Shown here one piece after another: positions 21,161 through 55,720 of a stretch of DNA of 64,000 nucleotides; the first letter of the stretch is position 1, and every line of letters begins with the position of its first letter. The stretch comes from Lutraria lutraria. Its lineage: Eukaryota > Mollusca > Bivalvia > Venerida > Mactridae. A program made the translations under genes and the position numbers. Under the pieces are notes generated by a model. It searched no databases. It saw only the letters and a program-made list of their open reading frames with translations, and was not told the DNA's origin. The stretch is taken from positions 4,759,029-4,823,028 of the forward strand of contig OZ026843.1 in NCBI GenBank assembly GCA_964023205.1, given 5' to 3'.

Positions 21161-21164
21161 TCCT

Positions 21165-25248: not shown

Positions 25249-25470
25249 TCAGTGCCCATATCGGAAAATAAATGATTTTAGAATGCGAATTTTTTGTTTC
25301 CTGCCCCAGTGCAATATCTCGCTTTCTTCACATTTACATGATGTTCTTTTGCGTAGAAATTTGATGTTGCATTCTACAGTACAGTCGATGTACACGGAAG
25401 CTGCTGTATGCAGGTGACATAACACTGTGACTGCTATGATTACCATAAATCCGTAGCTGGATGGCTTCAT
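25249..25470 (-). CDS. Secreted four-cysteine basic peptide, copy A
   Basis: 73 residues. The start ATG (25468-25470) follows the acceptor ctggttttcag by 7 nt; an upstream in-frame start would lie in the intron, so I reject it. Residues 1 to about 26 form a signal peptide (hydrophobic MVIIAVTVLCHL, then HTAAS). The mature part begins near YIDC. Cysteines 30, 34, 45 and 47 make C-x3-C-x10-C-x1-C, the spacing of the helix-to-strand half of cysteine-stabilised alpha/beta peptides. After an acidic stretch come HWGRK (54-58) and a basic-hydrophobic tail QKIRILKSFIFRY, then Gly-His. Copy B at 55.5 kb is 64/73 identical. Unrecognised family: a host-defence peptide and a peptide-hormone precursor both fit. 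Copy A ends GH where copy B ends GR, so amidation of copy A is doubtful. Confidence 0.75.
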   Translation of the reverse strand: MKPSSYGFMVIIAVTVLCHLHTAASVYIDCTVECNIKFLRKRTSCKCEESEILHWGRKQKIRILKSFIFRYGH

Positions 25471-26355
25471 GGTTAAACTGAAAACCAGAAAAATACGCAT
25501 GTATATTAATTTCAAGGAAAACTAGAGTTTTAATATTAATGTCTTATAAATTATCAAAGGATCGACGCATAAGATGATTAATTGAAATAGCTATTTTTGT
25601 TTAGCATATTTTACCTTTTTTTTTTAAACCTTATTAACAACAAGAAAATGGTGAGAATTGTGCTTTTCACTTGTAGCTGCAGATTTTGCTGGAATAAAAT
25701 GAAATTGACATCAGAGACAGTGCTCCGAATCCGAATTTGTGGCAATTGACCGCCACCATGGTGATATCTCGCAAAGACAAATACTTAATTTATCAAATCA
25801 TAATTCATATACAAAATGCAGTGGAGTTGATGTATTTCACAGCCACATTTTAAATAAAATTATTGACAATCAATTGAAATAAATCCTCAATGTACTATAT
25901 GTTTGTTTGCACCAAAATTACAATCTAAAAAGCAATTATTTGCCACAATCACGAGTCAACAGCAGTTTAGTCAATAAATCACACATTGTCTTATCGAGAT
26001 AGAGTCTAAAGTGTTATCCGTGAATGTAAAAATCTAACTTGATAATTTGCCGCGATTTTGACTTTTTCACTGTAATCTGTTCTATTTCAGAGGACTAAAC
26101 TAGTTAGGTCACTGTTCAGAAAGACAAAATTGGGTTGAGTGTTCTTACTTCGCGGAATCCAAATCTTTCTTACTACATGTAGTAATTCAGCAGGAAATCT
26201 ATGCACGGACAGTTTTCTATCATTTTGTTTCCAACAAAGTCAGAAGTAGCAGGTACGCGTTTCATATCTCTTAAAGAAGAACAATCAAGCGCGGATACAT
26301 TATGTTTTTTTAAAGCCATATCAACAAGAACAAACTTATTACATTTTGTACTTAC

Positions 26356-26405
26356 CTTATTATTGCTGTCGGATAGTTCCTTTTCTACCAAACTATTAAC
26401 AGAGT
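26356..26405 (-). other. Non-coding first exon of peptide gene, copy A
   Basis: It runs from about 25-30 bp after the TATA box to the donor AATAAG/gtaagt (exon end 26356). The intron is 26355-25478 (878 bp), ending in ctggttttcag. No ATG-initiated frame continues through it into the peptide. The start is estimated from the TATA box. Confidence 0.6.
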
Positions 26406-26430
26406 CCTGTAGTCTGTCCCTCTTTTACAG

Positions 26431-26458
26431 TTTATATAGCGTTGTGATGACGTTACGC
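26431..26458 (-). promoter_or_regulatory. TATA box and conserved upstream element, copy A
   Basis: The minus strand reads gctatataaa (26440-26431), preceded by aacgtcatcacaac. The same order, aacgtcaccacaac then gctatataag, precedes copy B. The shared AACGTCA resembles a CREB/ATF half-site about 11 bp before the TATA box. Conservation between copies supports a real core promoter. Confidence 0.6.
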
Positions 26459-27308
26459 AGCTATGTAAAGAAAGGCAATTAGCGCTCCGTTGACGAACGG
26501 GTGACTTCAAACATTAGTCTAGCTGACATTATAGAAGCATTTGATAAAACATGCTCGTGTGTATATTATTTCAATCACATCGATAGCAGAGTTGATGAAA
26601 TGTGGTAGGTATAATAATGTCAAATGAGATAGGTGCATTCGTCAAGTCTTTTATAACTGTAAAAATTTAAAATATGTTTTTGTGTACATCAAGACAATTT
26701 ACCTCAATAGATAGCAGCGTCCACCACAGTGTTCTTTTAAATAGATTGGGATTGTATATCCATTAAATCAGCCTCCGATTAAAAGAAGTATCGGTTTAAG
26801 GTTGAAAACGCCATTTTACACTGAGAATTTTAAATTGTGATGACTCTTAGTCTACGGTCTGTTCCACTCGTATGAAAACTAATGGGATGATAATATCTGG
26901 TAGGTTAGTGTTGCCTCAGCATGTGGTAGAATAGAACAATTTATGACTATTTGGGTTGCTTTTAGGTCGTTGTCGCTCAGTCGAGAAAGTATTGGTAATG
27001 TATAACTACCATTTCCGTGCATGTTCGTGTTAGAATCTCCTCGGTTGTTTAAGGATACATGATTGGATCACGGACATTTTCAAATCTAACCCATTTAGAG
27101 ACACTTTAGTCAAGCCATACTAATATAACTTATTACGGTACTTGATGACAGTGTAAAATCAGTTTTAAAAATAAATTTCAGTTATTTGTTGCTCTAATTA
27201 ATATAAACCCATATTGCATGTAAGTTGCGAAATTTCGAATAGTGTGTTTAGTTCATTTTTCCACGAAAATGTTCATTATATGTCTTGGCTTGTTTATTGA
27301 TATGCATT

Positions 27309-27464
27309 GGAGGGAACAGTGTCTCAAATTTTGAAATACCCCCGTTCTCGAGATATTTGATTTTTAAGGTATTTTAGCCATTCAAAAGCGCCGAAATTTA
27401 CGTAATACTCCACAGATCAATAACAAAATCAAATATAAAAAATCTGAGACACGATTCCCTGCCT
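27309..27464. repeat. Foldback element, 156 bp
   Basis: The ends ggagggaacagtgtctcaaa (27309 on) and atctgagacacgattccctgcc (27442-27463) are inverted repeats of about 24 bp with a few mismatches. Confidence 0.6.
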
Positions 27465-28307
27465 CTAACCTTATACTACAAAATATCGAAACCCGCTTTG
27501 AAATCCATCACCAAATAATGCGGCAATCTTTATTCGGAAATAACATGTTCAGCGATACTTCAACATCCAGATTCACTAATCTTAGTACTTGGCTGCATGA
27601 ATGTACTAACAAACTCTTCTAGACATTATTTGATTACGAAATCATCGACGATAACTTCCCAATCACGTTCCAAGCATTAATCAGGCGGTCTGTCCACAAC
27701 AGCTGACCTTGCGTCAAGTGAAAACTAGGAATTTTTGTTTGAAGGTAAATTATTTTTTATTCAAAATCAGCCCACTGTAATTATTGTTAATGCAATCTTA
27801 TCTGTTATATCGTGTATTCATATCATTGCATACATCTCCATAACTTTTTCTGTACTTATTGTACAAGTATGACCGCTACATTTATGTTTTTCATTATCAC
27901 TTATAAGATGTGTGTAAACTGTTGTATATGTTATAGTTGTACGTAGATAATATAGTAAAAGTTCATGTCTTCAGCACAGATGTAAAGCTGGAAAGACACA
28001 AAATGACCCCAGCTATTGGTGCAACATTACACATCAGGGAAAACAACTTTGACATTTCATCATTTCATCGAATTAACACGTACAGCAAAGAATAGAAACA
28101 ACATTAGTATGCATTAATTGCCTCAATGATACACTACACCGGAATTCTTAAGGGTGAAAAACTTTTAAGTTAGTGCTATCCCCACTTTCTTATCCAATCA
28201 GTGACAAGGATATATTTACTTATTGACCTTCTTATCTTAATAGAATATAAAACCGACGTTCTAACTTCTTAGTTTCGAAGAACAACTTAGTACGCAATAA
28301 GACGGGT

Positions 28308-28409
28308 AGAATGCATACTAGTTTGGGTGTTCTTTGTAATAAGAAAGCTATAGTAGCTACCGCTCCTCTTAGCTGTCTAATTTACTAAGAGCACCCAAAT
28401 GTGTATTCT
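28308..28409. repeat. Imperfect hairpin, about 100 bp
   Basis: agaatgcatactagtttggg plus tgttctt (28308-28334) pairs with taagagcacccaaa plus tgtgtattct (28386-28409). Pre-miRNA-like in size, but the pairing has gaps. Confidence 0.5.
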
Positions 28410-28570
28410 AACATTTACCTAATGTACTGTGTTACTTGATTGTAATTAAAATCAATCCTGTATCATTGTACTGACACAGACAGGGGCTAGAACTATTAGA
28501 TAATTGTATTTAGTACAGCCTGAAATGTCAATAAATGAGAAAATTTGGGACCCGACCCAAACTTATAACA

Positions 28571-28604
28571 GTAGGTAGGTAGGTAGTTAATGTAGGTAGA
28601 TAGG
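28571..28604. repeat. GTAG/TAGG microsatellite
   Basis: Repeats of gtag around a short interruption. Confidence 0.8.
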
Positions 28605-29369
28605 CATTTTTGCTTTTTTGACATTATATGCTTTTAGGTGCTGAAAATGAAGCTGTAATAAAGAACGAAACAATCTGTTAAAGTCGTTAAAACTTATTTT
28701 AGGGAGGGGTGGGGCTGTGGCTTTTTAATGAGTATGTCGTGTAACCAAGAACTTTTATATCATGGCCTTTGTATTTTAGGCCGCATTATTTATTCAGTTT
28801 AGCGACCCGATATTTTTCGCAGATTATGTAACTATGTTTGTGGATTTGATATAGTCATAATGTTTTCCTTAAAACATCGTTAATTGCCCGTGTAAGTTAC
28901 ACTATATGAGCAAAGACACGGTATCGCCGATCTTAAAGATTCACTCACTACAAATTTAATGTAATGTTATAAAACTGATGATGCGAACGAAGCGATGAAA
29001 TAAATACCTGGAGCAAATTTTTCAACATTATTTTAGCTAAGACTCTATATTTTATCGTAACTTGGTTAAGATGGACCGTTTCATAAGTTGCCGTGAGAGA
29101 AAATCCGCGAGACAGTCTATGATCATTTGACTCATTACTCGTACTTGGTCTTGAATATCCAAAATCGAAAGTAAGCTTACAATAAATACGACTGCTAGTT
29201 AATTAATACAAGTGTAGGGTCTAATACAAAATGTATTATACTAAAATGGATAAAAATGCCATAAGAAACAGAAGTTTTCATTGAATATTTGAACATGCTT
29301 ATTTTCCATTGCCTTTGTGATAAGAGGGGAATGTCAATTCGAGTGTCAAGGAATCATCCATGCTGACTG

Positions 29370-29620
29370 GTCAAAGTCCAACGTCACCCCCTTGTATAAA
29401 AAGGGGACAAAGGTAACCTACCCAACTATAGACCTATATATCTAACATGTATCCTATGTAAGTTATTGGAACATGTTATAACCTCGACCATAAACCAGAC
29501 TGAAATGATTCAATGCAGAGCAAGGGCACTGGGTTTTTTGATAAATAAAAACGCGATTATTCTCCTTACAGCAGTGTCTCCAACATGACCAGTCAAATGG
29601 GATGGCGTTCCTTAGACAAG
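29370..29620 (+). pseudogene. Non-LTR reverse transcriptase relic, left part
   Basis: The plus strand encodes, in shifting frames, DWSKSNVTPLYKKGTK, a NYRPI-like block with LTCILCKLLEH-type residues, then, after an internal deletion, RDYSPYSSVSNMTSQMGWRS and LDKR. These are conserved blocks of the RT and C-terminal regions of jockey/CR1-type elements. The catalytic core between them is gone. The sequence is split at 29620 by the Helentron-like element and resumes at 31805. Confidence 0.65.
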
Positions 29621-29824
29621 AGGGCCATGATGGCCCTATAACTGCTCACCAGGAGAAAAGGTCATTTAGAGATTAACATAGTTGAAGTTTTCTATACGAG
29701 TCCAAGTAAGATCAAGTGACCCATCTGGGCCGTTTTTTATCCCTTGGCCATTATATGAACAGATTTAAAGGAGGCCTATTAGACAAATCTAGATACCAAA
29801 TATCTTAGCTCTAGGCCTTGTGGT

Positions 29825-31549
29825 TTCGGAGAAGAAGATTTTTTAAAATTTTCCTATATAAAATAGAATAAACCCCAGGGCAGAGCTAATTTTGACCCCG
29901 GGGCCATAATTTGAACAAACTTGGTAGAGGTCCACTAGACAATGCCACATACAAAATATCTAAGCTCTAGGCCTTGCAGTTTCGGAGAAGATTTTTTAAT
30001 TTTTCCTATATAAAGCTATATAAATCAAGTGACCCCCGGGGCGGGGCCAATTTTGACCCTAGGGCAATAATTTGAACAAACTTGGTAGAGGTCCACTAGA
30101 CAATGCTACATACCAAATATCTTAGCTCTAGGACTTGTGGTTTCGGAGAAGAAGATTTTTTAAATTTTCCTATATAAAATAGAATAAACCCCAGGGCAGG
30201 GCCAATTTTGACCCTAGGGCAATAATTTGAACAAACTTGGTAGAAGTCCACTAGATAATGCTACATACCAAATATCTTAGCTCTAGGCCTTGTGGTTTCG
30301 GAGAAGAAGATTTTTTTAAATTTTCCTATATAAAATAGAATAAACCCCAGGGCAGGGCTAATTTTGACCCCGGGGCCATAATTTGAACAAACTTGGTAGA
30401 GGTCCACTAGACAATGCCACATACAAAATATCTAAGCTCTAGGCCTTGCAGTTTCGGAGAAGATTTTTTAATTTTTCCTATATAAAGCTATATAAATCAA
30501 GTGACCCCCGGGGCGGGGCCAATTTTGACCCTAGGGCAATAACTTGAACAAACTTGGTAGAGGTCCACTAGACAATGCTACATACTAAATATCTTAGCTC
30601 TAGGCCTTGTGGTTTCGGAGAAGAAGATTTTTTAAATTTTCCTATATAAAATAGAATAAACCCCAGGGCAGGGCCAATTTTGACCCTAGGGCAATAATTT
30701 GAACTAACTTGGTAGAAGTCCACTAGATAATGCTACATACCAAATATCTTAGCTCTAGGCCTTGTGGTTTCGGAGTAGAAGATTTTTTAAATTTTCCTAT
30801 AAAAAATAGAATAAACCCCAGGGCAGGGCCAATTTTGACCCTAGGGCAATAATTTGAACAAACTTGGTAGAAGTCCACTAGATAATGCTACATACCAAAT
30901 ATCTTAGCTCCAGGCCTTGTGGTTTCGGAGAATAATTTTTTTTTAATTTTCCTATATAAGTCTATATAAATCAAGTGACCCCCGGGGCGGGGCCAATTTT
31001 GACCCTAGGGCAATAATTTGAACAAACTTGGTAGAGGTCCACTAGACAATGCTACATGCCAAATATCTTAGCTCTAGGTCTTGTGGTTTCGGAGAAGAAG
31101 ATTTTTTAAATTTTCCTATATAAAATAGAATAAACCCCAGGGCAGGGCCAATTTTGACCCTAGGGCAATAATTTGAACAAACTTGGTAGAGGTGCACTAG
31201 ATAATGCTACATACCAATATCTTAGCTCTAGGCCTTGTGGTTTCGAAAAGAAGATTTTTTAATTTTTCCTATATAAGTCTATATAAATCAAGTGACCCCC
31301 GGGGCGGGGCCAATTTTGATCCTAGGGCAATAATTTGAACAAACGTGGTAGAGGTCCACTAGACTATGCTACACACCAAATATCAAAGCTCTAGGAATTG
31401 TAGTTTTTGACAAGAAGATTTTTTAAATTTCCTATATAAGTCTATGTAAAATCAAGTTACCCCCGGGGCGGAGCCAATTTTGACCCCAGGGGAATAATTT
31501 GAACAAACAATGCTACATACCAAATATCTCAGCTCTAGGCCCTGTGGTT
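29825..31549. repeat. Tandem core of about 155/161-bp units with a higher-order repeat
   Basis: About eleven to twelve units, each with 'ttcggagaag', 'gggcaataatttgaac', 'acttggtagagg' and 'atcttagctctagg'. Two kinds alternate: about 155 bp with 'aataaaccccagggcaggg' and about 161 bp with 'aagtgacccccggggcgggg'. Units 1-3 and 4-6 form two almost identical blocks of exactly 472 bp (29825-30296 and 30297-30768). Later units lose regularity. Confidence 0.9.
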
Positions 31550-31767
31550 TCGGACAAGAAGATCTTTTAAGTTTTTTCTATTTGTTGTCATAGCAACCAG
31601 AGTTTTTAATGAAATTTAATTTTTTGAACAACTTTAAAAGGGGACCACCCAAGGATCATTCCAGCAAAGTTTGGTTGCAATCGGCCTAGCGGTGTAGGAG
31701 GAGATGTTGTTTTAAGTAAACATGGACGCCACGTAACGACGCACGATGGACGCAGGGCGATCACAAA

Positions 31768-31802
31768 AGCTCACCATGAGCACATTCGTGCTCTGGTGAG
31801 CT
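31768..31802. repeat. Terminal hairpin of the Helentron-like element
   Basis: agctcaccatgagcac and gtgctctggtgagct around a 4-nt loop, one bulged base; the predicted 3' end signal. Confidence 0.75.
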
Positions 31803-31804
31803 AA

Positions 31805-32065
31805 AAACAGAATAGCAGATGCTCAACTACTCATGCTTTACAAAATAGTGAATGGTCTGTTGCAGTGCCAATACCTAATTATGTCAAGCCACCATCTCGT
31901 CTAACTAGACAAAAGCATCCCCAGTCTTTCACCCAGATCCTCACTCCCTGTAATTATTTCAAGTAGTCCATTTTTCTCATCCACCTTAATCTTACGGATT
32001 CATCTCCCAGCTGAACTTGTATTGGTCAACAGCCCGGTTGAATCAATCAAGGTGTGACCAAAACA
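31805..32065 (+). pseudogene. Non-LTR reverse transcriptase relic, right part
   Basis: It resumes the relic broken at 29620: RIADAQLLMLYKIVNGL, then in shifting frames HPQSFTQI-like, FKYSFFP-like and LPAELVLVNSPVESIKV, the well-known C-terminal end of such proteins. Stops and frameshifts throughout. Confidence 0.7.
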
Positions 32066-35000
32066 AACCAAACAACTCAAACATGGTAACCTGTTTTTAA
32101 CCCCTTTTATCTGTATATTCTTCATTATATAACACTGTCAACTTTAAATCATGTCTTGCAAATACATTTGTGTTTACCTTTTCTCTCCAATCCATTTACG
32201 CTTTTAATTCCTTGCACAGACGCACACCTGCACATACTACAAGAAAGTGGAGTGTTGCAGTATATATAGATAGATAGTGCCGATGTTGGTGAGTTGAAAT
32301 AATGTACTCTCCGTTAGAAAAGCAAGCGAATACGAAATGGTTCATATACACACAACGTATATTAAAATGGAGTTTACAATGCACATATTGCGAGAGTGAA
32401 ATATTAGTTGAAAGTTATCATTAATATGGAAAGTGTCATGCAAACTTTAAGTACTGGTACAGTTGTAAGGTAGTATTATACGCACAATGTGTGTATCGAG
32501 TGGAGACCAGGGTATGTTAACAAAATCAGAGCTGAACTCAACATATTTATTGAAACGATAGACCAGACAAACGCAAATAAAGACCAATTGTCTATAAATA
32601 CCGTATTTTCTCCATCTTCTAATATTTCTCCCTTGTTAGTCACATGTACTTTTACATATACAACAACATTTTGTTTAACCTTAGGAAAGTACATGCTATC
32701 ACCAAATATGGCAGTGGTATCTAAATCAGAATTCAGACTGTCAACGTAAACATTCGTGATTTTCTTAGTAGTTCGTTGTAGTGTTAATTTTTGATAGAAC
32801 GTCCTACGTCGGTACACTCTTTGACACTAAGTTTTTGTCTTCAATTGTTCTATGTATGGATTTTGGGTTGAGGGTTCTAAGGAAAGGTAGTATTTTGGGG
32901 AAGGTTGGATGTTTTCTTGACTGTTTATTTTCGACGAATCCTTTTCTCATCTACATTTTATATCGCTTTTTGGAAACGGAATGATATTTCAGCTTTCCAT
33001 AGCCGACACTTCCTCGGCGCGCATGAATTTTGATGCGGACCAAAGTACTACGTTTATCAACATCCGCCATTCAGTTGTTACCCATGACTTAAAAAAGTAA
33101 ATGACAAATGCAAGCATATTCCGTATTTCATTGCAAGTAGGTTTGCCAGTAAACACTGTCTTAGCGGCCACCTCCGAATAAAGTCTACCTTGTGAATCGA
33201 GGTAATTGTTTTAAAACCGTCATATATTACTTAGAACAAATGACGTCAGAATAAGGGTCATCTGTCAATAAAGGTCATAGTTTGTCTTTCCCAATGGTGT
33301 CCTTTGTTCACGGTTGGTTACGTATACAAAATTAACAGAACATTTTATTTGCGTATACATTAACAAGAGACAAAATAAATTCTGATAAAGGTCACATTCA
33401 TGCTCACCTTAAGATGGTATCTCTTCAAATGTTTCACAGTACATGTACAATACGTGATATTAGTGAAAACAAAGAATCCATCACATCACCATCAGATATG
33501 AGTTTAAAAGTTCACTTACATTTTATTACATCGTAGTTCAGTTGCAATTTACATGGCAATAAGTTTAATCTATATAAGTCATGATATGTAACAAACATAA
33601 AACGAGGCATGCATTCATGCATGGAAAAAAAATATTACTAATTGTGATAGTTCATGTCTAAAATGATGCGGGAAAGAATCGGAACAAATGACTTGTTTTA
33701 CGGGATTTAAGACAGAGCAATTATGTTTTATACTATGGAATTTACACATTATTCACAACCTGAGTTTTTGTTGATCAGGCGAATTTTGAACATTTTAAGA
33801 CATCGTGCAAGAGACAAAGACTAAAAAATACATAAAACATCAAAAAGGCACACATCTTGTACAAATGGTATTTTGTTACAATGTATGAAAAAGCAAAAGC
33901 ATTTTGGCGTCGCGTCATGTTACATAAATGTGTACGAACATAGCGCGTCACGTCATTACATTTTTTACAATTATATGGGTTGTAATCATTCAGCATTGGC
34001 AATCATATTACGTATATTTGTTTTTAAAAAACCCGTAAATATATGTACGTATATTCACGAAGTACGTCATCGGTTGGTTAAACAAAGACACGGTAATACT
34101 ATGTATGTCGAATATATTTTTCTCATTAGAAGTGTGGAAAAACATTATATGTTATGTGTCATCATCTTCCATATGTTGCCATTAACTCTTTCTAGACTAA
34201 ATAAAAGGAAACATGATCTCATTGCGCTAAATACTAATAGTTGATGTAATATTTGAATCTTACAATCAACTTATTGCGTAGTGCAAATGTAAAACAACAA
34301 CAGCATTGTAAGAATAAAACAGATTATACACGGTTTCTTGTAGATATCGAACGCCGGCACGGACTTTGTTGTCGTCAAAGTCCATTTTAACAGTATAAAC
34401 ACACTTAATGAAAGTCAATGTACATGTATATGCGCAGCATGTTAAGAAATTAAATCGCGATGTATATTTAAAGAAATGATATATTTTCATTTCAAATACA
34501 TGTAGATCATAAAGTAATGTACCCGGGAGGACGGGCTGTAACATAAAGTAACTGTTTTCATATGTCCTTCAGAGGGAGTGAACCATTGTAATCTATACTG
34601 GAACAAAATAACGGCCCTGGATTGACGAACACAGTGTTAACGCACAAAATAGATGGACTGCATGCAAAGATCGACTTAAAGGGGACGGGCTTTTGCTCCC
34701 GTTTCCAAGAATCATATTATGTCATCTCCCTGAATTAAGATTGAAGCTAAAGTTAACTTAAAGGCACCAAGTTTGAGACTTAATTCCAGGGTGACAAACT
34801 CGAGGCTATCTTACTTTCGTCATGTAGTAGTAAGGTCTAAATGTGTGTTTCTGGTTGAATTAAACAAGTGAGAAAGATGATGTACCTTTACTCTGGTTGG
34901 ATAACCAAAAACAAACAAAAACATGTTCGTGCCTAATGGGATAGCATCGATGTTTTTGGCCAACTCGACGAGGTTGTTAACTGTCGATGTCCACGTAAAA

Positions 35001-36067: not shown

Positions 36068-36300
36068 ATGTCAACATGGGAGAAGAAGTGGTATAGGGGT
36101 AGAGCATCGGATTTCTAAGCCGGGGAATTTTCAGGTTCTAATCCCCCCGTCCGAGTTTCGGAATTTGACCGGAACCTTCACAATCCCTTCTTTCGGCACG
36201 AGTACTGGCCAGAACCCAGGAAGCAGTCAATATGCTTAATATAAGTTGTAAGAACTTGCTCTACAATCGATGTAAAATAAATAAATTTAACTACCGTGTG
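36068..36300 (+). repeat. tRNA-derived SINE
   Basis: An A-box-like region (gtggtataggggtagagcat, 36089-36108) and a B-box-like region (caggttctaatcccc) lie about 35 bp apart, as in a tRNA head. A body and 3' part 'cttaatataagttgtaagaa' follow, ending in an AAATAAATAAA-type tail near 36290. The best-preserved SINE of the window. Confidence 0.7.
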
Positions 36301-36339
36301 GAATCATTAATTTTCATTGGGGATTTAATAGTGGATTTC

Positions 36340-37306: not shown

Positions 37307-38628
37307 TACAGTGCAACCTCTCCAAAGCAACACCCTTAGAGAGTAGCCAATTTAAAATATGTTGTTGTTGAGAGGTTGTTGCTCTAGAGAGATTAAGTTA
37401 ATAGATAAATCATGCAGTGAGAAAAATCTTACTATTGTTGTAAAAATGGGAGGTTGTTGCTCTAGAGAGATTAAGTTAATAGAGAGAAAATCTTACTATT
37501 GTTGTTGAGAGGTTGTTGCTCTAGAGAGATTAAGTTAATAGATAAATCATGCAGTGAGAAAAATCTTACTATTGTTGTTGGGAGGTTGTTGCCCTAGAGA
37601 GATTAAGTTAATAAATAAATCATGCAGTGAGAAAAATCTTACTATTGTTGTTGGGAGGTTGTTGCTCTAGAGAGATTAAGTTAATAGATAAATCATGCAG
37701 TGAGAAAAATCTTACTATTGTTGTTGGGAGGTTGTTGCTCTAGAGAGATTTAGTTAATAGAGAGAAAATCTTACTATTGTTGTTGGGAGGTTGTTGCTCT
37801 AGAGAGATTAAGTTAATAGAGAGAAAATCTTACTATTGTTGTTGGGAGGTTGTTGCCCTAGAGAGATTTAGTTTATAGATAAATCATGCAGTGAGAAAAA
37901 TCTTACTATTGTTGTTGGGAGGTTGTTGCCCTAGAGAGATTTAGTTAATAGATAAATCATGCAGTGAGAAAAATCTTACTATTGTTGTTGGGAGGTTGTT
38001 GCCCTAGAGAGATTAAGTTAATAGATAAATCATGCAGTGAGAAAAATCTTACTATTGTTGTTGGGAGGTTGTTGCCCTAGAGAGATTTAGTTAATAGATA
38101 AATCATGCAGTGAGAAAAATCTTACTATTGTTGTTGGGAGGTTGTTGCCCTAGAGAGATTTAGTTAATAGATAAATCATGCAGTGAGAAAAATCTTACTA
38201 TTGTTGTTGGGAGGTTGTTGCCCTAGAGAGATTTAGTTAATAGATAAATCATGCAGTAAGAAAAATCTTACTATTGTTGTTGGGAGGTTGTTGCCCTAGA
38301 GAGATTTAGTTAATAGATAAATCATGCAGTGAGAAAAATCTTACTATTGTTGTTGGGAGGTTGTTGCCCTAGAGAGATTTAGTTAATAGATAAATCATGC
38401 AGTGAGAAAAATCTTACTATTGTTGTTGGGAGGTTGTTGCTCTAGAGAGATTTAGTTAATAGATAAATCATGCAGTGAGAAAAATCTTACTATTGTTGTT
38501 GGGAGGTTGTTGCCCTAGAGAGATTTAGTTAATAGATAAATCATGCAGTGAGAAAAATCTTACTATTGTTGTTGGGAGGTTGTTGCTCTAGAGAGGGCCG
38601 CTCTGGAGAGCCGCTCTGGAGAGGTTTA
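37307..38628. mobile_element. MITE family A, copy 4, internally amplified
   Basis: The left end tacagtgcaacctctcc matches the family; the right end (gccgctctggagaggttta) matches the family's subterminal part but lacks the final CACTGTA. Single-unit family members are 180-200 bp; this one is about 1.3 kb because its inner block is repeated 18 times. Confidence 0.8.
37374..38600. repeat. 18-unit tandem array (73 bp, with 59-bp variants)
   Basis: Unit starts (ggttgttgc) are at 37374, 37452, 37511, 37584, 37657, 37730, 37789, 37848, 37921 and then every 73 bp to 38578. Three spacings are 59 bp, from loss of 14 bp around 'ataaatcatgcagtga'. Units differ by few bases (ctctag/ccctag; attaag/atttag), so the spread was recent. 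The unit corresponds to the single internal block of MITE copies 3 and 5. Confidence 0.95.
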
Positions 38629-38938: not shown

Positions 38939-38939
38939 T

Positions 38940-42535: not shown

Positions 42536-42539
42536 TGGA

Positions 42540-44400: not shown

Positions 44401-44921
44401 AAGTACACTTTCTTTCAGCACGCTGTACATACATATGTTTTAAGTTCCAAACAAAACCCTTCAAAAGTTTTTAAAGTAATTGCAAGATTCAAAAAGTGTG
44501 AAACTGGCCTTCTTCCATTTGGACCGTCTTAGTAGCAGACCGTCGTGGAAATCTGCCGCCTTTACACCTTCGATTATACCAGCGGTACATATATATATGT
44601 ACCTGATTATACTCATGCTCGGAATTTCCTTTCTATAACTTAATTAGCATATAACTTAAATTTAGTCCCAACTAATTAGCATTATATTCCAAAAATGTGA
44701 ACATATAGGCTTACATAGCCCTCATACTAATCACAGGGGGACGTAGTGTATCCTGCGATAATAATTTGGTCAATTTATGACGACGAAATTTATGTTTATT
44801 TATATATACATTATCCCTCTGTGGTACTAATTCGGCTTTCCGGTTGGCCGATTTTCATGAACGATTTCGGAATTAGGGCCATCCTCTCAGACTGTGCGGG
44901 ACGGGCAGAGTCAAAGAGTAA

Positions 44922-45897: not shown

Positions 45898-46259
45898 GTA
45901 TCTCGTCGTCACAAACCAGGTAGTTGTATTTAATACAACTACCTACACAAACAGTCTAATTTATTAGTTGGACTAAGCCTAAGGCTTACCATTATCAGGC
46001 ATCAGGTGTCGTCAGTTTTTCTCTTCAAATATTCTTGAAAGATGGTGACAGTCTTATCCTCTGGTTTTGATCGTTTACTTTATGATTCATCTGGCATTTT
46101 GTACAATTAATAATCCAAACATAAAACGTCAACTTGTAGAAAACACTATGAAAACTACGAGCTCAAAGAGCCAAAATAAGTGGGTTACATTAAACTGCAA
46201 ACATCCATAATAAGTTTTTAACCGTATTTATAAGTACGAAGCAAAAGGAAGAGGGCGGG

Positions 46260-46682
46260 ATCCAAGAAGATCCAAATGAAACTGTGGCACAACTTAAAGA
46301 AAAAGTGAATATCATATTCAAAAAACATAACATATCCGTGGAAAATGCAGACATAATGGCGATTCATCGGCTCCCATCAAACAACAACCGCATCAGACCT
46401 GTTATAATAAAAACAATGAACAATGAAGCTAAATATTGTATTATGAGGAAAAGAAAGGAAATGAAAAAGGATGACCATAAAATTAGCGATGATGTCACAA
46501 GCATGAACTCTGGATTAATTAATAGACTCCTCAAGCACGATGAAATCAAATCCGCTTGGTTTTTCAACGGCTCAGTGTATGGAGAAACGACTAGAAGCGA
46601 ACGGGTGAAATTTAACATTTTTGACAATGTAAGTGAGACGATCACCACCTATAGAGATTACAAACTTCAGAGAGAAAAATAA
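46260..46682 (+). pseudogene. ORF1 of the L1-like element, N-terminally truncated
   Basis: An open frame of about 140 codons ends with TAA at 46680. ADIMAIHRLP, RPVIIKTMNN, KSAWFFNGSVYG and KFNIFDNVSE match the RNA-binding C-terminal half of L1/CR1-type ORF1 proteins. No in-frame ATG precedes this conserved region; the first is at 46356, in the middle of a conserved motif. The coiled-coil N-terminus is missing, in keeping with 5' truncation. Confidence 0.65.
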
Positions 46683-48429
46683 ACATCTAATATGACATCT
46701 GACTTACAGTCTTATCCTTCATAATGTATATGCAATGTCTGAAATACTTTATTATTATATATAGAGAAAAAAGATCCTGTTCTTTCTCTTGAAAAAAATG
46801 TTCCTGTTCTTTCTATTGCTGTTTTTCTTCCCCATGATTACCATAAAATGATATAGATGTATAAATTATATTGTTTCGTAACATGTGAGAAACGTTCCTG
46901 TTTTTTCTCTGGCTGTTTTTTCTCCCCATGATTACCTTTAGATGATATAGATTTATAAAATATTGTTACATAATATGTGAAAAATGTTCTGTTCTTTCTC
47001 TTGAAAAAATATTCCTGTTCTTTCTATTGCTGTTTTTTCTTCCAATGATTACCATAAAATAATATAGAGGTATAAATTATTGTTTCATAACATGTTAAAG
47101 ATGTTTATATTCTTTCTTTTGTTGTTTTCCCCCTCATGAGTACCATAAAAATATTACATGTATTGCCGTTGTAATGATTGATTGAGCCATTTTCTGCATA
47201 TGTGCATGTATAATATTCATGCTCACTCCATTCTGTATCAACCTTAACATGCTTTTGCTTTCGAATTCTGAAATGTTAAGGATATACACTATAATGGACT
47301 CAAAAACCATACGGTTGTTACTACATTTCTAATTTGCATCATATCACACAAATACAAATAATTTTATGAAATTAAGTCTTACTCCATTCCGTATCAATCT
47401 TTGGAGACTTTCGCTTTCGACTTACTCTAAAGAGTGTGCAATTAAATGGACACACCGACTATATGTGAAGGTTTATAGCATGCCAATTATAGACTGAAAG
47501 AATATGTTCAGTTTTATGTTAATTCACACAAACAATCTTACAAACAGCCATCCAGACTTACTCTAAAATCCACATCTGCACTCACTGTCTCACACAAACA
47601 TGGCTCTCATAGACAGAAACAATTACACAAGCATGCATTCATACGTGTAAAAGGATACTAATTTTTCCATTAGTGCTTCTTTTGGTACCAACAAGTATAT
47701 CTTTATAATAGCATAATCCTGTATAAAAAACATTCAAATATCTCTCTGGGAAGGACATTATTGTCAGATGTAGATACATGTATATAATTGTTCTTTTCTA
47801 TGTACATAGCATTTGTATTGTAAAATGTTTTGTATATCTCATCAAGACATATGAGATTAGAACCTTGAAATAATGAATACAATTGAAGCGTTGATTGTGA
47901 AGTTTTTCTTAAAGCAGATAGTCATTGTAAGAGTTTCGTTGTTAGTGCTAATCTCATTGCTGGTTATTATATTGTAAAGAACAATTAATTTGCTGTCTTT
48001 CGTTTAGCTTTGAAACAATGCACACACAGACCAATAAATATTATTTTTCTATTTTAAAAAGAAGTCAATTATTAGCTTTTTGTGAAAATGAAAATAATTA
48101 TTGATAACAATACTAAAAATTGTATAAAGTTTTTTATACCTTTTACACAATGTAATATCAAGTACATGAAAATTATTCCTTCATGGCCATATTTTAGCCT
48201 ATGTATTTGTATGTATTTATTATGTTCATAGAACCCACTGTAATTGTGGAAAACCCATACTGGATTTTTCATGTTTGTTCTTCACTCACTTTTTTACATT
48301 TTTTCACCACCTCATATGTATTGTCAGTTCCTGTCTTTTCTATACTTAAATGTATACTTTGTACCTAAACAATTTTATTCAACCCACATATATGTAATAG
48401 ATGAAAACTATAAAAAGTTCTCTTAAACA
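46683..48429 (+). other. 1.75-kb spacer between ORF1 and ORF2
   Basis: Non-coding. It begins with a tandem repeat (46765-47160) and has two diverged copies of 'cttactccattccgtatcaa' (about 47221 and 47380). The usual ORF1-ORF2 gap in L1-type elements is far shorter, so either the family has a long spacer or foreign DNA was inserted. Confidence 0.6.
46765..47160. repeat. Tandem repeat, about 4 units of about 105 bp
   Basis: Each unit has 'gttcctgttctttct', 'gctgttttttct', 'catgattaccataaaa' and 'atagatgtataaattattgt'. Pyrimidine-rich half and AT-rich half alternate. Confidence 0.8.
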
Positions 48430-51400
48430 ATGTCTGATCTAAGAATTTACTCATACAATTGTCGGGGCCTTAGAAGTGCCAAGAAAAGGATGGATATCTT
48501 AAATTTGTTTAAAGAAAAAAAAGTTGACATTCTTTGTCTGCAAGAAACCCATTTTACTAAAGAAACTGAAAACACAGTGTATTCAGAATGGAATGGAGAA
48601 TGTTTTTTTAGTCATGGTAAATCTGACGCTAGAGGGGTAGCAATACTCTTCAGACAAAATATGAACATAAAGATAGTAAATAGTAAATTAGATTCAAATG
48701 GGAATTATTTGATTCTAGAAATAGTATATAATGACACAAAATTTGTTCTTATCAATGTTTATACCCCTAATATAGCTGCTCCAGATTTTTTTAGTACAAT
48801 TTTTAAGGAAGTTGATTCTTTGGATACTACAGATATTATTATGTGCGGAGATTTTAACCTTGTACTTGACCCCGATATAGATTATAATAATTACAAATCT
48901 AAAAATCATAATGTATATGGTAGAAAAAACCTTCTAGAAGTAATTGAGGACAGAAATTTAGTTGATCCTTTTTGTGAATTCCATGGAAATCTAAAAAGAT
49001 ATACATGGAGAAGAATGAATCCTGTACAACAGGGCAGACTTGACTTCTTTTTAATTTCAAATAGCTTACTCAACTGTGCTAGGAAATGTAATATTGACAT
49101 CAGTTATAAATCAGATCACTCGAGTATATTCCTTGAAATGTGTCTTTCAACAACATCACATGGTAAAGGCTTTTGGAAATTCAATAATTCATTACTACAT
49201 GACATTGAATTTATAAAAAGTATTAATACAAAGATTGATGAAATCATTTTACAATATTGCTTACCTGTATATAATATAGATAATGTCTTAAACATGGACA
49301 GAACAAATATACAATTTGTTATAAATGATGAATTGTTCATGGAGACTCTATTAATGGAAATTAGGGGGAAAACAATTTCACACTCTAGCTACTTAGTAAA
49401 ACAAAGAAAAAATAATGAAGAAATACTTTTAAAAGAAATAAGTGACATTGAATCATGTCTATCTGATAATAATGACAGACTTGTCTTCCTAAAAAGTCAA
49501 TTAGAGGAATTACGACATACTAAACTTAAAGGCTCTTTTGTAAGGTCAAGGGCAAATTGGGTTGAAAAAGGAGAAAAGACCACAAAATATTTTTGCAACT
49601 TAGAAAAGAATTTTATTTCTAATAAAACAATATCATTTATAGAAAAAGAAGATGGTACGAAAATCTTTGACCAAAATGAAATTTTACAGGAAACTGGTAA
49701 TGTTTACAAAGCTCTATATAGTAAAGAATCTTTGATAGATGACTTTGAACTAGAAAATGAACTAGATGGATGTCATGTACAAAAACTGAATTCAGACCAA
49801 GCAAATGAACTTGAAGGTTTATTAACTTATAATGAAGAAGCTGAAACACTAAAAAACATGAAAAGTGATAAAAGCCCTGGATGTGATGGTTTTACTTCAG
49901 AATCTTTTAAGGTATTTTTGGGGTAAAATAGGACACTTCGTTGTAAATGCTATAAATTTTGCATTTTTATCCAATTCATTTTCAAAAAATATTAAGTTGG
50001 GAACGATAACCAGTATCCCTAAAGAGAATAAACCAAAACAAATTGGAGACAAATAACCCTATTAAATGTATTATATAAACTTGCCTCAGGCAGTATAGCA
50101 AACAGATTAAAACAAGTACTAAGTGTTTTAGTTTCAAATGACCAGACTGGTTTTGTTAAAGGTCGATATATTGGGGAAAACACTAGATTATTATATGACA
50201 TAATGCAATATACAGAATTAAATAAAATTCCTGGTTTGCTTGTACTGATAGACTTTGAAAAGGCTTTTGACTCAATATCTTTTAATTTTATAGAAAAAAC
50301 TCTCAGCTTTTTTAAATTTGGTAATATGTTTAAGAAATGGATCCAACTGTTCTTGAATAATACAGAAGTATGTGTACAACTAAATGGATATCTTTCAAAC
50401 TTCTTCAAAGTTGAAAGGGGTTGCAGACAAGGGGACCCAATATCACCATATCTTTTCATCCTATGTTCAGAAATTCTAGCTATTAAATTACGACATAATA
50501 AAGATATTAAAGGAATACATATTGATGGCAAGGAATATAAGATTTCCCAATTTGCAAATGACACTTCTTTATTATTAGATGGAACTGATATAATCATTAA
50601 ACTCTGCCCTAAATACCTTACATAGATACTCATTGATATCCGGCCTCAAAATAAACTTTGATAAGACAAAGTTAATCTGGTTAGGCTCCCTAAAATACAG
50701 TACTAGGTCAATCAAAACAAGATGGAAACTTTCATGGGGGGATACACAATTCAAATTACTAGGCTTAATTTTTGATGTGGACTTAAATAAGATGTATGAC
50801 TTAAACTTTAATGCAAAACTACAAAATATAAAAAATAGCATACTGTATTGGAAAAGACGTAACCTAACACCTATAGGTAGAATAACAGTGGTAAAAGCAA
50901 TGCTACTTCCCATATTAACTCATTTGTTTATAAGCATGCCGACTCCTGGCAGAATATTCATCAAAAATCTTACAGATATGTTTAATGAATTTGTGTGGAA
51001 GGGTAAAAATAAAATAAAACATACAATATTTATAAAAGATTATAAGGAAGGTGGCTTAAAAATGATCGATATCCCAAGTTATATATGCAGTCTAAAAATC
51101 AAGTGGTTGAAAAATTATGTCCATAATAGCAAAAGTAAATGCTACAATCTTGTTAACTCTATATTTGACATGGATAAACTTTTTAACTGTGGCAAATCAT
51201 ACTGTGACATCATCATTACAAAAATAAAGAACCCGTTTTGGATAGATGTGTTAAAATCCTATATTTGCTTTCTTAATAAATTGTCTGTTAGGGAAACATC
51301 ACAAATACTTAATATGCCACTTTTCTATAACAAAAACCTACTTATAGATCAACAACATATATATTTACCTTCCTTCTACAAAAAAGGAATAAGATTTATT

Positions 51401-52150
51401 AAAGATGTAATTGATGATCAAGGAAAGTTTGTTGACATAAAATATCTAGAAGAAGTAACAGAGGAAAAATTGAATTTTCTACTATACTATGGACTCAGAA
51501 ACGCTGTCAATAAATATATTAAAATGAAAAAAATACCATTAGAGAAAAATAAACAACTCTTAAATCCAAGAATGAATTGTTATATACATCCGATTCTAAC
51601 TAAGAAGGATGCAAATAAATTTATATATAAAACACTGATTAAAAATGATGAAATACCCACAAGCAAACCCAAGTGTGAATCTTTAAGTAATAACATTATA
51701 GACTGGGACTTCATGTATAGTTACGTCTTTAAATATACTAGAGACACATATATACAATGGTTACAAACAAGAATTATACACAGAATTCTAGCTACCAATA
51801 CGTTACTTTATAAAATGAAAATTAAACCAAATAACCTGTGTACATTTTGCAAAAAGCATGAAGAAACAATATCTCATCTGTTTTGGGACTGCTGCAGAGT
51901 AAGACCAATCATACAATTTTTAAATAATGGAATAATACATCTAGATCCCAATTTTAAAATGAATATGATAATTGTTATATTAGGATCTGGAAAAAAAGAG
52001 TCTATACCTATCGATATTCTTCTTCTAGAATTTAAAAAATATATTTACTTATGTAAAAGGAGAGAAATCTTACCTAGTACTGAAAGTTTAAAGAACAGTT
52101 TAAAACTCGCATGGGAGATATATAAAACATCGGGCATAACAGATATATAA
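48430..52150 (+). pseudogene. ORF2: AP-type endonuclease and reverse transcriptase
   Basis: The endonuclease (48430 to about 49140) is intact to the eye: SYNCRGLRS, LCLQETH, GDFNLVLDPD and YKSDHSSIF supply the N, E, D and H of this nuclease fold. RT follows with SPGCDGFTSE, frame changes near 49916 (+1) and 50035 (-1), FVKGRYIGENTRLL, LIDFEKAFDS (catalytic Asp), GCRQGDPISPYLFIL, then QFANDTS where FADDTS is expected, so one catalytic Asp is Asn. Another +1 change at about 50600 leads into a 505-codon open frame (50633-52150) with the RT thumb, CTFCKKHEETISHLFWDC (a C-x2-C...H-x4-C motif) and the stop. Three frame changes plus the Asn make it inactive. Confidence 0.9.
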
Positions 52151-52460
52151 TACAACAGATGGACAATTGTAAGACATTTTTGTTTTTAACCCTTGCATTG
52201 TTATTAAAGGTACACTCAAATATCATAATTACAAAAATGGTGGTGAAACTATGTTGTTGTTTCTTTTGTTTATTTATATATATTAAATGAGGTTTCTGTA
52301 TATTGTCTTACATGTATATAAATGTAATATGTGTTAGTTTTATCAGTAGGTAGTTCAAACTATGTTGTAGTCTTTCAAAAGCCTTTGAGCTTGTTTGTAA
52401 ACATGCAATATGAGCTGAACCAAATAAAATATACATAAACCTCAAAAAAAAAAAAAAAAA
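52151..52460 (+). other. 3' UTR and A tail of the L1-like element
   Basis: About 290 bp, AATAAA at 52423-52428 and A17 at 52444-52460. Confidence 0.8.
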
Positions 52461-52597
52461 GGGCGGGGTCAATTTTACTCCGCCTAAATTAACACGTGGG
52501 AGTCCGTGTGATGTAAACACATATTAAGTATAATATTGAATAAGAATATACATGTATATGACGTACGATAAGGATAATTGCATAATTGCACGACTCT

Positions 52598-52688
52598 GCA
52601 TGATGCTAAAAGTTTACAGCATCATGCTATAAGTTTTCAGCACCATGGTGAAAGTTTTTAGCATCATGCTGAAAATTTTTAGGATCAA
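52598..52688. repeat. 27-bp tandem repeat, about 3-4 units
   Basis: 'agcatcatgctgaaagttttt' with variants (gatgctaaaagtttac, accatggtgaaagttttt). Confidence 0.8.
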
Positions 52689-53010
52689 TATATATATGCT
52701 ACTTGTTTTTTATATACATATATAATAAACAAAACATGGCGTACAACGATATGGTATGGTAATTACATATATAATATAAGTAAGCATAATCCTATTGGAC
52801 AGATGATCCCTAGTTACCTGAAGTTTATATTGTTAATGTAATTTGGACACTTTTCTTGATTCTTTTTATTTTTATAAATTTTACTTATTCTACGATAGTT
52901 TGAGCAATTTTTTTTCAGCTGAATACTAGTTATGAATACTACATCAAGAAAATCATGCAATTAATCACCAACTTTATTAAAACATGGTAAATTACTATAT
53001 TATCAATATA

Positions 53011-53119
53011 ACCACAGCACTTAACCTAGCTAAGATATGATGTTTGGAGTAAAACTTAAGATATGATGTTTGGAGTAAAACCACAGCACTTAACCTAAGA
53101 TATGATGTTTGGAGTAAAC
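53011..53119. repeat. Tandem repeat of 'aagatatgatgtttggagta'
   Basis: Three copies, two of them within a 65-bp direct repeat that also holds 'accacagcacttaacct'. Confidence 0.85.
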
Positions 53120-53960
53120 ACGTTTGTTGAAAATTTTCATTAAAATATTACACAATTTAGTACATACATATATATCATGAATATTAGTCACCACGTATCT
53201 ATTTCATCGTTTCGTTTGCATCATTAATTTTATTACATTACATTAACTTTGTAGCGAGTGAATCTTTAAGGTCGGCGATATCATGTCTTTGCTCAAATAC
53301 TGTAAAATCCACGGGCTGTCAACGTTTTTTTTTATGAAACAATAATAATATTATATATTTCAACCATTATCGTAGTTCAATAACCTGTAGAAATACAGAC
53401 TATCAAGTCGTTAAACTGAATGTTGTTTTCTGTGTATCAAATATTAGGGCCTTCCTGATCGATTCATTAAAAAAATCCCCGATCCAACAATTGTCGTTCG
53501 GTATGAACACAACGTTAAGACCATTTCTCAACAGTCGGTAGGGTTTTTTCCTACATACCGAAGAACTTCCATTAACCATCCGCCTTAGAAAATAGTCTCA
53601 ATTTTTCAATTCAATGGCACAAATACAAATTCAAATATTACGTGCATTTAAGTCAATATCAGATGGCTATAAAATCGTGAACGAACAACAACAACAAAAA
53701 ACAGTCTTAAAAAGTATTGAACAACCCTCTACCAATATTTACTATCAGTACGCACATTTCAAGAAATGATGTCGTCATAATTCAGGTGCCAATAGTCTGG
53801 TTCCCAGCTTCTATCGTAAACATCTTTGTATACAAAGGGGCTGGTAGTCCAGACTATAATAATAATTGCTGAACTACATTGTACTTTTGATGATCAGAAG
53901 GAGGAACATAAATCAAAGTACTGAAAGCACATATGGAACTGAAACATCTTTAACAACTGC

Positions 53961-54035
53961 ATGGCGGGTGTAGGAAAGCATATAGTGCATTGGTCTGTAT
54001 CAAAATTCATACGCGCAGAGCCAGTGAAGGACTAT
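53961..54035. repeat. Dispersed repeat (ggcggRtgt...catcaaaattcat)
   Basis: Matches the minus strand of about 33060-32990, and its first half resembles 11252-11285. It is not a coding exon. Confidence 0.5.
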
Positions 54036-54106
54036 CGTTCAGTTTCCAAAACTCGATCAACCCAATACCTCACCCTACAAAGGATTTCAACTTTTGACTG
54101 CTTTAA

Positions 54107-54308
54107 AGGGGCATGCCCTGGAACTGAAGCGTCTCGAATATAAATCAAATTGGTATCATTTGAATGCCAAAATCAATTAATGAAAGTCCTGTAAAATATT
54201 TACGAAATGTCCCGCTATTTGACTCAAAAATACACATTTCAAGATTTACCAAACCTGCCGATTACGCCTTAGAAAATATAAGACACAGCAGTTCCTGGGC
54301 ATGCCCCT
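54107..54308. mobile_element. MITE with TTAA target duplication (piggyBac-like)
   Basis: 202 bp. The ends aggggcatgccctggaactg and cagttcctgggcatgcccct are inverted repeats of 20 bp with one mismatch. TTAA flanks both sides (54103-54106, 54309-54312). TTAA duplication suggests piggyBac-type mobilisation. Confidence 0.8.
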
Positions 54309-55114
54309 TTAATTGTAGTTCCAAACAACAGCAGAACCTTTGAATAGAGCTTTGATTTTTAATAATCCAGTTTTGACGGAAATTTATTTTTGGTTTCTTT
54401 TCTTCGAACTTTTCGTGTGCTGCATCTTCACGTTTAAATTCTATTCGTCCCCCACATCCAGCTTTTTGGATATGAACGCTATTTTCAGACCACCTCCGAT
54501 TCTTAGCAACAAATAATTATGAACTGCTCTATTCTTCTGCACTTACAGACAACACTTTTCTATCGGATAGAATAATCCCACAATACGCCATACGAGTGAT
54601 TTCACCCGGCTGACATTATAAAGTCATCATTAAAGTGTGTAAAGTTATATCTGGCCGTCCTATCACTGGCAGAATAGTTGTTTATATGTGATAAGAATCA
54701 TACCCAAGTACCTGAATTTAAACAATGAATATTGGAAGCGAACATGAGCAACAATAAAATTAATGGCAATGAAAGGGAGATAACTTGGAAATTGAACACT
54801 ACTCTGGTAACTTGTAGTAATCATGTTTGTTAAATTACAGGGACAGTTTTTGTAAAACTCTTTTAAGAAAACACTATATACAACATATACATACTAGTTA
54901 GTTAGCTTATGGAAACAATGTGACTTTACACTTTTGGGAATTTATATAGCCTTTCTTGTCAGATATATCTTGTACACTTTAATTATGTTTATTCTCCGTA
55001 AAATGGCCTTTTCAATGGCATTGCGTCAATATATAAAAAAAAACGATTCTTGTTATTATCTCGCTAATTTGCTTCTCTTCCTCGACAACTGCGTACAAAA
55101 ATGGAGGCGTGACT

Positions 55115-55143
55115 CTTACAACGTCACCACAACGCTATATAAG
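55115..55143 (+). promoter_or_regulatory. TATA box and conserved upstream element, copy B
   Basis: aacgtcaccacaac then gctatataag (55134-55143), matching copy A in order and spacing. Confidence 0.65.
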
Positions 55144-55166
55144 CAACATAAGACACTACAGAAATC

Positions 55167-55214
55167 AGTTAAAACTTTGCGAGTATTTAGGAACAACAAA
55201 AGATCAATAGTTAG
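55167..55214 (+). other. Non-coding first exon of peptide gene, copy B
   Basis: From about 25 bp after the TATA box to the donor AGTTAG/gtaagt (55214). The intron is 55215-55491 (277 bp), ending tttttctggttttcag, identical to the copy A acceptor region. The intron is about 600 bp shorter than in copy A. Confidence 0.65.
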
Positions 55215-55498
55215 GTAAGTTATATGTTTATTATTGGAGATGTATATTTTTTAATACTGTTCTACTATTAATTTACGACTGTTTCAACCTTAATCCCCAT
55301 AAAAGGAAATACTTTAATTAGAATTGACATTGTATGTTCTTGTCTGATACTTTTGTTTCAACAAAATTATGGAATCGAATGATAAAATTCTTTGTAAAAC
55401 AGTACGAGTAAGAATATGTGTATATACATGTAATAATGTATCACTAATTTCATAGCTGCTTGTATAAAATTAATATTTTTCTGGTTTTCAGTAGAATC

Positions 55499-55720
55499 AT
55501 GAAGCCATCCAGCTACGCCTTAATGGTAATCATAACAGTGACAATGTTATGTCACCTGCATACTGCAGCTTCAGCGTACATCGACTGTACTGTAGAATGC
55601 AACATCAAATTTCTACGCAAAAGAACATCTTGTAAATGTGAAGAAAGCGAGAAATTGCACTGGGGCAGGAAACAAAAACTCCGAATTCTAAAGGCATTCA
55701 TTTTCAGGTATGGCCGCTGA
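55499..55720 (+). CDS. Secreted four-cysteine basic peptide, copy B
   Basis: 73 residues; ATG 7 nt after the acceptor, TGA at 55718-55720. The signal peptide is residues 1 to about 26 (ending HTAASA). The mature chain has C30, C34, C45 and C47 in C-x3-C-x10-C-x1-C, with an LRKR basic site between the cysteine pairs. HWGRK (54-58) could be cut as a Gly-dibasic site and the chain ends FIFRY-Gly-Arg, the classical amidation signal; the last piece would start with Gln. The mature part has a net charge of about +8. Nine residues differ from copy A, five of them in the signal peptide; residues 27-51 are identical. Family unknown to me. CSalphabeta-like antimicrobial peptide or amidated neuropeptide/hormone precursor are the two readings; the sequence alone does not decide. 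Confidence 0.8.
   Translation: MKPSSYALMVIITVTMLCHLHTAASAYIDCTVECNIKFLRKRTSCKCEESEKLHWGRKQKLRILKAFIFRYGR

Follow-up and report, generated by a model that had tools for sequence, protein, structure and literature searches.

Four-cysteine peptide genes of Lutraria lutraria as diverged relatives of a probable bivalve neuropeptide precursor

The analysed window, a stretch of 64,000 bp of the Lutraria lutraria genome (contig C12, OZ026843.1, positions 4,759,029-4,823,028; 728.5-Mb, 71-contig assembly), contains two genes for small, putatively secreted proteins with four cysteines. Both open reading frames (25249..25470 on the minus strand and 55499..55720 on the plus strand, hereafter the 25-kb and 55-kb genes or copies) are intact on translation, encode 73 residues each and are terminated by a stop codon. 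Re-translation and alignment agree with the original prediction, which had been made from the sequence alone, that 64 of the 73 residues are identical and that the stretch 27-51 is wholly so. In both proteins, a start that looks signal-like by eye (residues 1-25) is followed by a four-cysteine peptide ending in His-Trp (26-55), a GRK site and a FIFRY tail (59-71). The 25-kb frame ends in Gly-His and the 55-kb frame in Gly-Arg, which is amidation-competent.

Window genes and their copies on one contig

A complete gene model, comprising a promoter, a non-coding exon 1, an intron, a single coding exon and an AATAAA signal, can be predicted for both window genes. In the 25-kb gene (all features on the minus strand), a cAMP response element (CRE) half-site, ACGTCA (26448..26453), begins 15 bases ahead of the first base of a TATATA box (26433..26438). 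The predicted non-coding exon 1 (26356..26408) has an approximate start, set ~30 nt after the TATA, and a 3' end at AAG before GTAAGT; the predicted intron of the 5' untranslated region (5'UTR; 25478..26355, 878 nt, GTAAGT...TTTTCTGGTTTTCAG) has its acceptor 7 nt before the ATG, and a candidate poly(A) signal, AATAAA, is located at 25208..25213. In the 55-kb gene (plus strand), the corresponding features are the ACGTCA half-site (55121..55126), the TATATA box (55136..55141), the predicted exon 1 (55166..55214, start approximate and inferred), the predicted 5'UTR intron (55215..55491, 277 nt, acceptor 7 nt before the ATG) and the candidate AATAAA signal (55836..55841). Exon 1 was delimited on the basis that the promoter and exon 1 are alignable among four close copies of the gene, and its start positions are inferred. 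An in-frame ATG at 25500, which would give an 83-residue frame, was not taken as the start, since the predicted intron covers this position.

The original prediction had spoken of a pair of genes. A search of the genome with the 25-kb protein revealed five places, all on C12: four close copies, namely the two window genes and the loci C12:4700913-4701128 and C12:4705059-4705274 (both on the plus strand), and one divergent "fifth gene" (C12:501723-501914, minus strand), which is 40% identical to the 25-kb protein. The frames of the four close copies are all intact; these copies span at most 114 kb, and the fifth gene is 4.2 Mb away. The same five places were obtained with the mature part alone as the query (expectation value, E, up to 10; fifth gene at E 3.2e-8 and 48% identity) and with the fifth gene under the same threshold, the latter adding one match at E 0.74 that was taken as noise. 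The two close copies outside the window (C12:4696000-4708000) sit on tandem units at a distance of 4,146 bp from each other, with 3.6 kb aligning at 97% and further partial repeats around them.

The frame of the fifth gene reads MNNLSLLCVLVVSGLCVNINAAYIDCAMECLFADFRKPTVCECKSTRKLHWGKRAPRARTHKLPTFRYGKRAVPYMNSDVDD and is then followed by a splice donor. Judged by this sequence, its layout is that of a peptide prohormone: it encodes a four-cysteine peptide ending in LHW-Gly-Lys-Arg and then a 14-residue peptide ending in FRY-Gly-Lys-Arg. Its last exon is predicted near C12:495,320, where the sequence matches the C-terminal end of a protein of the bivalve Mactra antiquata (tblastn E 2.7e-5 in 30 kb) and is preceded by a TTTTCAG acceptor in a compatible phase. 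The predicted gene runs from C12:501929 to about 495,250 on the minus strand.

All five family genes of this genome share the position of the 5'UTR intron acceptor, 7 nt before the ATG, and carry ACGTCA-N9 or N11-TATATA upstream. The looser pattern ACGTCA-N7..13-TATATA occurs six times in 240 kb on both strands, and five of these occurrences are upstream of the five family genes, among which the four close copies are not mutually independent witnesses for the promoter module. Across the promoter and exon 1 (140 bases), the fifth gene shows only 46-48% aligned identity to the four copies. The cysteine spacing C-x3-C-x10-C-x1-C was found five times in ~480,000 six-frame residues (240 kb of own-genome DNA), each time in a family member; it is no chance pattern.

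Relatives in other bivalves

A search of the protein database with a five-sequence profile (E up to 10) returned eight proteins among 39 candidates, the weakest at E 5.4e-24, with none dropped. With the fifth gene as the query, two proteins among two candidates were obtained, one of them 91% identical. The named relatives are ACF0H5_011779 of Mactra antiquata and MAR_021261 of Mya arenaria, both labelled hypothetical protein, and LOC127860937 of Dreissena polymorpha, an uncharacterised protein (isoform X2). These three belong to Mactridae, Myidae and Dreissenidae, all within the bivalve superorder Imparidentia, and the Mactra protein is 75% identical to the fifth gene. Hereafter, the nine relatives are the fifth gene plus the eight proteins from the database, and the 13 sequences are these nine plus the four copies.

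All nine relatives keep Y, D, C, M-E-C-L-F-A, F-R, T-V-C-E-C, H-W-G-K-R-A-P-R, L-P and F-R-Y-G-K-R, with GKR following both HW and FRY. When a profile of the four copies was compared with one of the nine relatives, the probability was 98.2 and E 3.9e-14; BLASTP of the 55-kb copy against the Mactra protein gave E 1e-15 for that one comparison alone. Eleven aligned sequences have in common Y, D, C, E-C, R, T, C.C, HWG, R and FRYG, and in 13/13 sequences the distance from Y to W is 29 residues with identical cysteine spacing. On this sequence evidence, the window genes are related to the fifth gene and its bivalve relatives: homology to the Mactra, Mya and Dreissena precursor extends over the mature region, and the shared 5'UTR acceptor position and CRE-TATA promoter join them in the comparison with the fifth gene of their own genome. 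Pfam assigned no family to the two window proteins and matched 0/11 family members, and a sequence search of the PDB gave no match for family proteins. Scans of prokaryote and viral contigs yielded 17 and 83 pattern stretches, respectively, none of which was confirmed; the first row of the query ran into the fifth-gene intron.

The copies share with the Mactra, Mya and Dreissena precursor the pattern Y[IV]DC-x3-C-x10-C-x1-C, HWG followed by two basic residues, and FRYG, whereas they are only 73 residues long and lack the C-terminal exon. After HW, all four copies have GRK where the nine relatives have GKR; they end in FRYGR or FRYGH and a stop where the relatives have FRYGKR, and their tail reads FIFRY instead of LP[TI]FRY. 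Since the processing sites are unlike those of the relatives, we call the copies diverged paralogues and not typical members. The loop between the cysteine pairs also differs, being FLRKRT in the copies and FR[QKE]PT in the relatives, with FRERT in one of the nine (P0008). The LRKR site noted in the original prediction is thus present in 4/4 copies, but RKR occurs in 0/9 relatives and is therefore a property of the copies, not of the family; among the nine, the fifth gene and likewise P0003 have RK at this place, followed by proline.

In the phylogenetic tree (midpoint root, 49 columns, 5/10 inner branches under 80), the four copies are split from the nine relatives with full support (100/100), and the fifth gene falls among the relatives, where it is paired with the database protein P0003 (99/96). 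Judging from these sequences, the copies may be either young and fast-changing or an old paralogue unseen elsewhere.

Selection, homogenisation and possible products

Does the similarity of the window genes reflect selection on the protein? By the Nei-Gojobori method, dS of the window pair is 0.296 and dN is 0.055, a ratio of 0.19 (0.14 in the mature part). Codons 26-73 contain eight synonymous and five non-synonymous differences; the original count by eye had given seven and five, of which the five holds. The synonymous excess is significant for the whole frame (p=0.0003) and for the mature part (Fisher test, p=0.001). It resides in the tail, where codons 56-73 show seven synonymous versus three non-synonymous differences (p=0.0008), while no significant excess is present in the cysteine core (codons 26-55, one versus two, p=0.49). 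Changes affect one of ~18 synonymous sites in the core versus seven of ~13 in the tail (p=0.004); these p-values are rough, as the boundary between core and tail was set after looking and the tests assume site independence. Selection is detectable in the tail and not in the cysteine core, and the earlier suggestion that it has kept the protein is supported for the former only. The identity of residues 27-51 says little on its own about selection because the synonymous sites there are nearly unchanged too.

In coding DNA, the 55-kb gene matches the copy at 4,700,913 at 96.4% identity. The promoter and exon 1 of these two align at 71%, the intron ends at 52% and the 3' flanks at 43%, the last two values being at the level of unrelated DNA (e.g., 50% and 47% when the copy at 4,700,913 is compared with the fifth gene). 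The 25-kb gene is further from the same copy in coding DNA (93.2%) but closer to it outside, with 73% at the intron end, 67% in the 3' flank and 76% in the promoter and exon 1. Such incongruence between coding and flanking sequence suggests exon-limited gene conversion between the copies. It also serves as a warning that near-identity of adjacent copies can stem from exon homogenisation and is no proof of selection residue by residue.

By sequence comparison, the window genes are diverged relatives of the gene found in Mactra, Mya and Dreissena and elsewhere on C12, and we consider it likely that they make amidated neuropeptides. Of the two alternatives in the original prediction, this favours the amidated signalling peptide, with GKR after HW and FRY in all nine relatives. 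Each copy would be produced as a secreted precursor from which the signal peptide is removed, and a prohormone convertase would cut at WG-RK in the copies, as at WG-KR in the relatives. The first product would be a 30-residue four-cysteine peptide ending in His-Trp, with two internal disulfides and an amide expected if GRK is used; the second would be a 13-residue basic peptide ending in Phe-Arg-Tyr, with an amide expected where the end is Gly-Arg. Carboxypeptidase trimming and conversion of glycine to the amide would then yield FRY-amide from the three copies ending in GR and not from the 25-kb copy, and both peptides may act in the manner of neuropeptides, through RY/RF-amide-type receptors coupled to G proteins.

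As the parent gene, the LFRYamide/PXRX precursor of molluscs, discussed below, is the most likely candidate. Its duplication was probably followed by loss of the C-terminal exon, gain of the loop RKR and multiplication into the four-copy cluster, whose coding exons would have been homogenised by gene conversion. If the loop RKR were cut, two disulfide-linked chains would result. This leads to a more far-reaching proposal, which we regard as doubtful: a neuropeptide precursor copied, in this bivalve lineage, into four genes homogenised by exon-limited conversion, in which the new RKR would convert the single-chain HW-amide into a two-chain, disulfide-linked amidated hormone, so that insulin-style maturation would have arisen from scratch.

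Several observations weigh against a neuropeptide role of the copies. Their cut sites are weaker than those of the relatives, with RK for KR after HWG and no KR after FRYG. The 25-kb copy ends in Gly-His and lacks the Gly-Arg carried by three of the four copies, so amidation of its end is not expected; the Gly-Arg amidation signal originally proposed for both genes applies to the 55-kb copy only. The 55-kb protein found no candidate among 5.8 billion proteins in a search that requires three shared 5-residue words, and close relatives of the copies are therefore unseen elsewhere. The branches on either side of the root of the tree amount to 1.55 and 1.27 changes per column, and with such long branches between copies and relatives the function may have changed. 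Finally, a search of the genome for PF03712, the copper monooxygenase C-terminal domain, gave 29 matches. The family also includes dopamine-beta-hydroxylase-type proteins, and the matches therefore do not single out the amidating enzyme. Twenty-one of the 29 are on contig C9, mostly near 3.9, 6.5 and 20.2 Mb, the others including some on C20, and this clustering suggests a local expansion of the enzyme family.

A different fate for the cluster is conceivable, in which the copies have left signalling and are released as a single cationic 48-residue peptide that serves in defence or as a signal of epithelia or gametes. Homogenised, diverged local clusters are a familiar pattern of effector genes, and the four copies form a local, strongly diverged cluster with apparently homogenised exons; the weaker cut sites and the net charge of +8 of the whole 48-residue mature chain of the 55-kb copy (K/R minus D/E) agree with this. 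However, HWG and FRYG are retained in 4/4 copies despite much change around them, the tail has a synonymous excess, no Pfam family matched, defence families included, and the copies still have the promoter module of the neuropeptide-like gene and its 5'UTR acceptor position. We thus consider this explanation unlikely.

It is also improbable that these genes are duplicates that have been homogenised but are not expressed or are decaying. Mobile elements lie nearby, the 25-kb copy lacks the Gly-Arg end, and exon homogenisation partly accounts for the low divergence among the copies, but all four frames are intact, the window pair shows a dN/dS of 0.19 with a significant synonymous excess, and the promoter module is present along with predicted splice sites and candidate poly(A) signals.

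As to a minimal defence peptide, the other alternative of the original prediction, no positive support was obtained: the Pfam and PDB searches described above were negative, and the net charge is 0 or +1 in the seven cysteine peptides counted. Cysteine-stabilised alpha/beta (CSab) defensins have at least six cysteines in the CSab pattern, and the mature part of the window proteins has four. Structure prediction with AlphaFold was of low confidence, with a mean predicted local distance difference test score (pLDDT) of 54.6 for the 55-kb protein (one helix, no strand) and 54.9 for that of Dreissena (two strands after a helix, with additional elements behind them); both models are too weak to support or exclude a helix-strand fold. 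That the genes are CSab defensins reduced to four cysteines, as the C-x3-C plus C-x1-C spacing and the low-confidence Dreissena model might suggest, is highly improbable given that relatives in three bivalve families share the four cysteines and bear GKR sites, that neither Pfam nor the PDB gave a match by sequence, and that the predicted models have such low scores, the 55-kb one without a strand.

The DNA around the window genes contains several mobile elements and repeats. Remains of a long terminal repeat (LTR) retroelement (18180-24052, plus strand) lie beside the 25-kb gene; of its three frames scanned with Pfam, one matched PNMA and gag (gag below the cut-off), one the integrase H2C2 and core domains, and one gave no match. 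An element of the long interspersed nuclear element (LINE) type (48430-52150, plus strand), whose two scanned frames gave endonuclease and zf-RVT matches, stops 3.3 kb short of the 55-kb start codon. A DDE_Tnp_4 transposase fragment (Pfam E 1e-8) occupies 57407-57697 on the minus strand, and a frame at 63322-63663 on the same strand resembles by eye the start of a mariner-type transposase, with no Pfam family match. Tandem-repeat arrays with units of ~155 bp and ~73 bp are present at 29780-31508 and 37419-38595, respectively. The segment 24453-24890, beside the 25-kb gene, is repeated ~10 kb away (14931-15451) in two pieces of 94% and 98% identity, which suggests a recent mobile insertion.

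Comparison with named peptide families

Text searches of the literature with six peptide-motif strings of the family (LPTFRY and LHWamide among them) gave no match, and the comparison with named families is based on published descriptions of their precursors, as given in excerpts of the cited papers. LFRFamide and short neuropeptide F share with the genes studied here an RF/RY-amide-type C-terminus, but their precursors are described as carrying several short amidated peptides, with no cysteine peptide mentioned in these excerpts (PMC4200219, PMC5996578). Luqin/RYamide is alike in having an RF/RY-amide-type peptide beside a cysteine-bearing segment; its cysteines are described as two in a C-terminal domain, whereas the window genes have four right after the signal-like start, and it was rejected since neither number nor position matches (PMC4208409). 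Whitnin/PKYMDT, considered because of AVPYMNSD in the fifth gene, was likewise rejected, being described as a two-cysteine ERYM-type peptide (PMC3434067, PMC5996578).

Two descriptions come closer. The LFRYamide family, identified in Lottia (PMC4208409), has a precursor in which an FRF/FRW peptide is encoded beside a double-disulfide peptide (PMC4200219), and for scallop LPFRFamide and LPFRYamide are reported among the listed FRF/FRY-amides (PMC5996578). The PXRX family of conchiferan molluscs is described as having four conserved cysteines, probably forming two disulfides, and a P[FM]R[WY] motif (PMC6425005). In the genes studied here, a putative FRY peptide that may be amidated stands beside the cysteine peptide, with FRYG-KR in 9/9 relatives and FRYG-R-stop in 3/4 copies, which, if processed in this way, would by description resemble the FRF/FRY/FRW-type arrangement of the oyster and scallop LFRYamide precursors. 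By description, four conserved cysteines in one peptide are found in 13/13 sequences, as in PXRX. The peptides themselves differ: those published are SIKIPFRFa, LPFRFamide and LPFRYamide, the nine relatives have LP[TI]FRY, and the window copies read FIFRY. Weighing against this assignment, the P[FM]R[WY] motif of PXRX is present in 0/13 sequences, and because of this and because the family was compared by description only, membership is no more than likely. Two PXRX sequences of Dreissena rostriformis are also reported to lack the motif (PMC6425005), and the LPTFRY of Dreissena polymorpha would fit this exception.

Thus, by its described layout and not by sequence comparison, the fifth gene is probably the LFRYamide/PXRX gene, and the idea in the original prediction that the family might still be unnamed holds only in part. 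Bivalve genes labelled hypothetical in databases thereby receive a likely identity and are linked to the little-studied four-cysteine FRY-amide precursors of molluscs, with one genome in which the precursor is multiplied and its cut sites are altered. The idea that a neuropeptide precursor drifts to a new secreted role with both end motifs kept becomes testable here. The window genes are best read as a new form, multiplied and re-cut, of a type of peptide precursor already known from molluscs.

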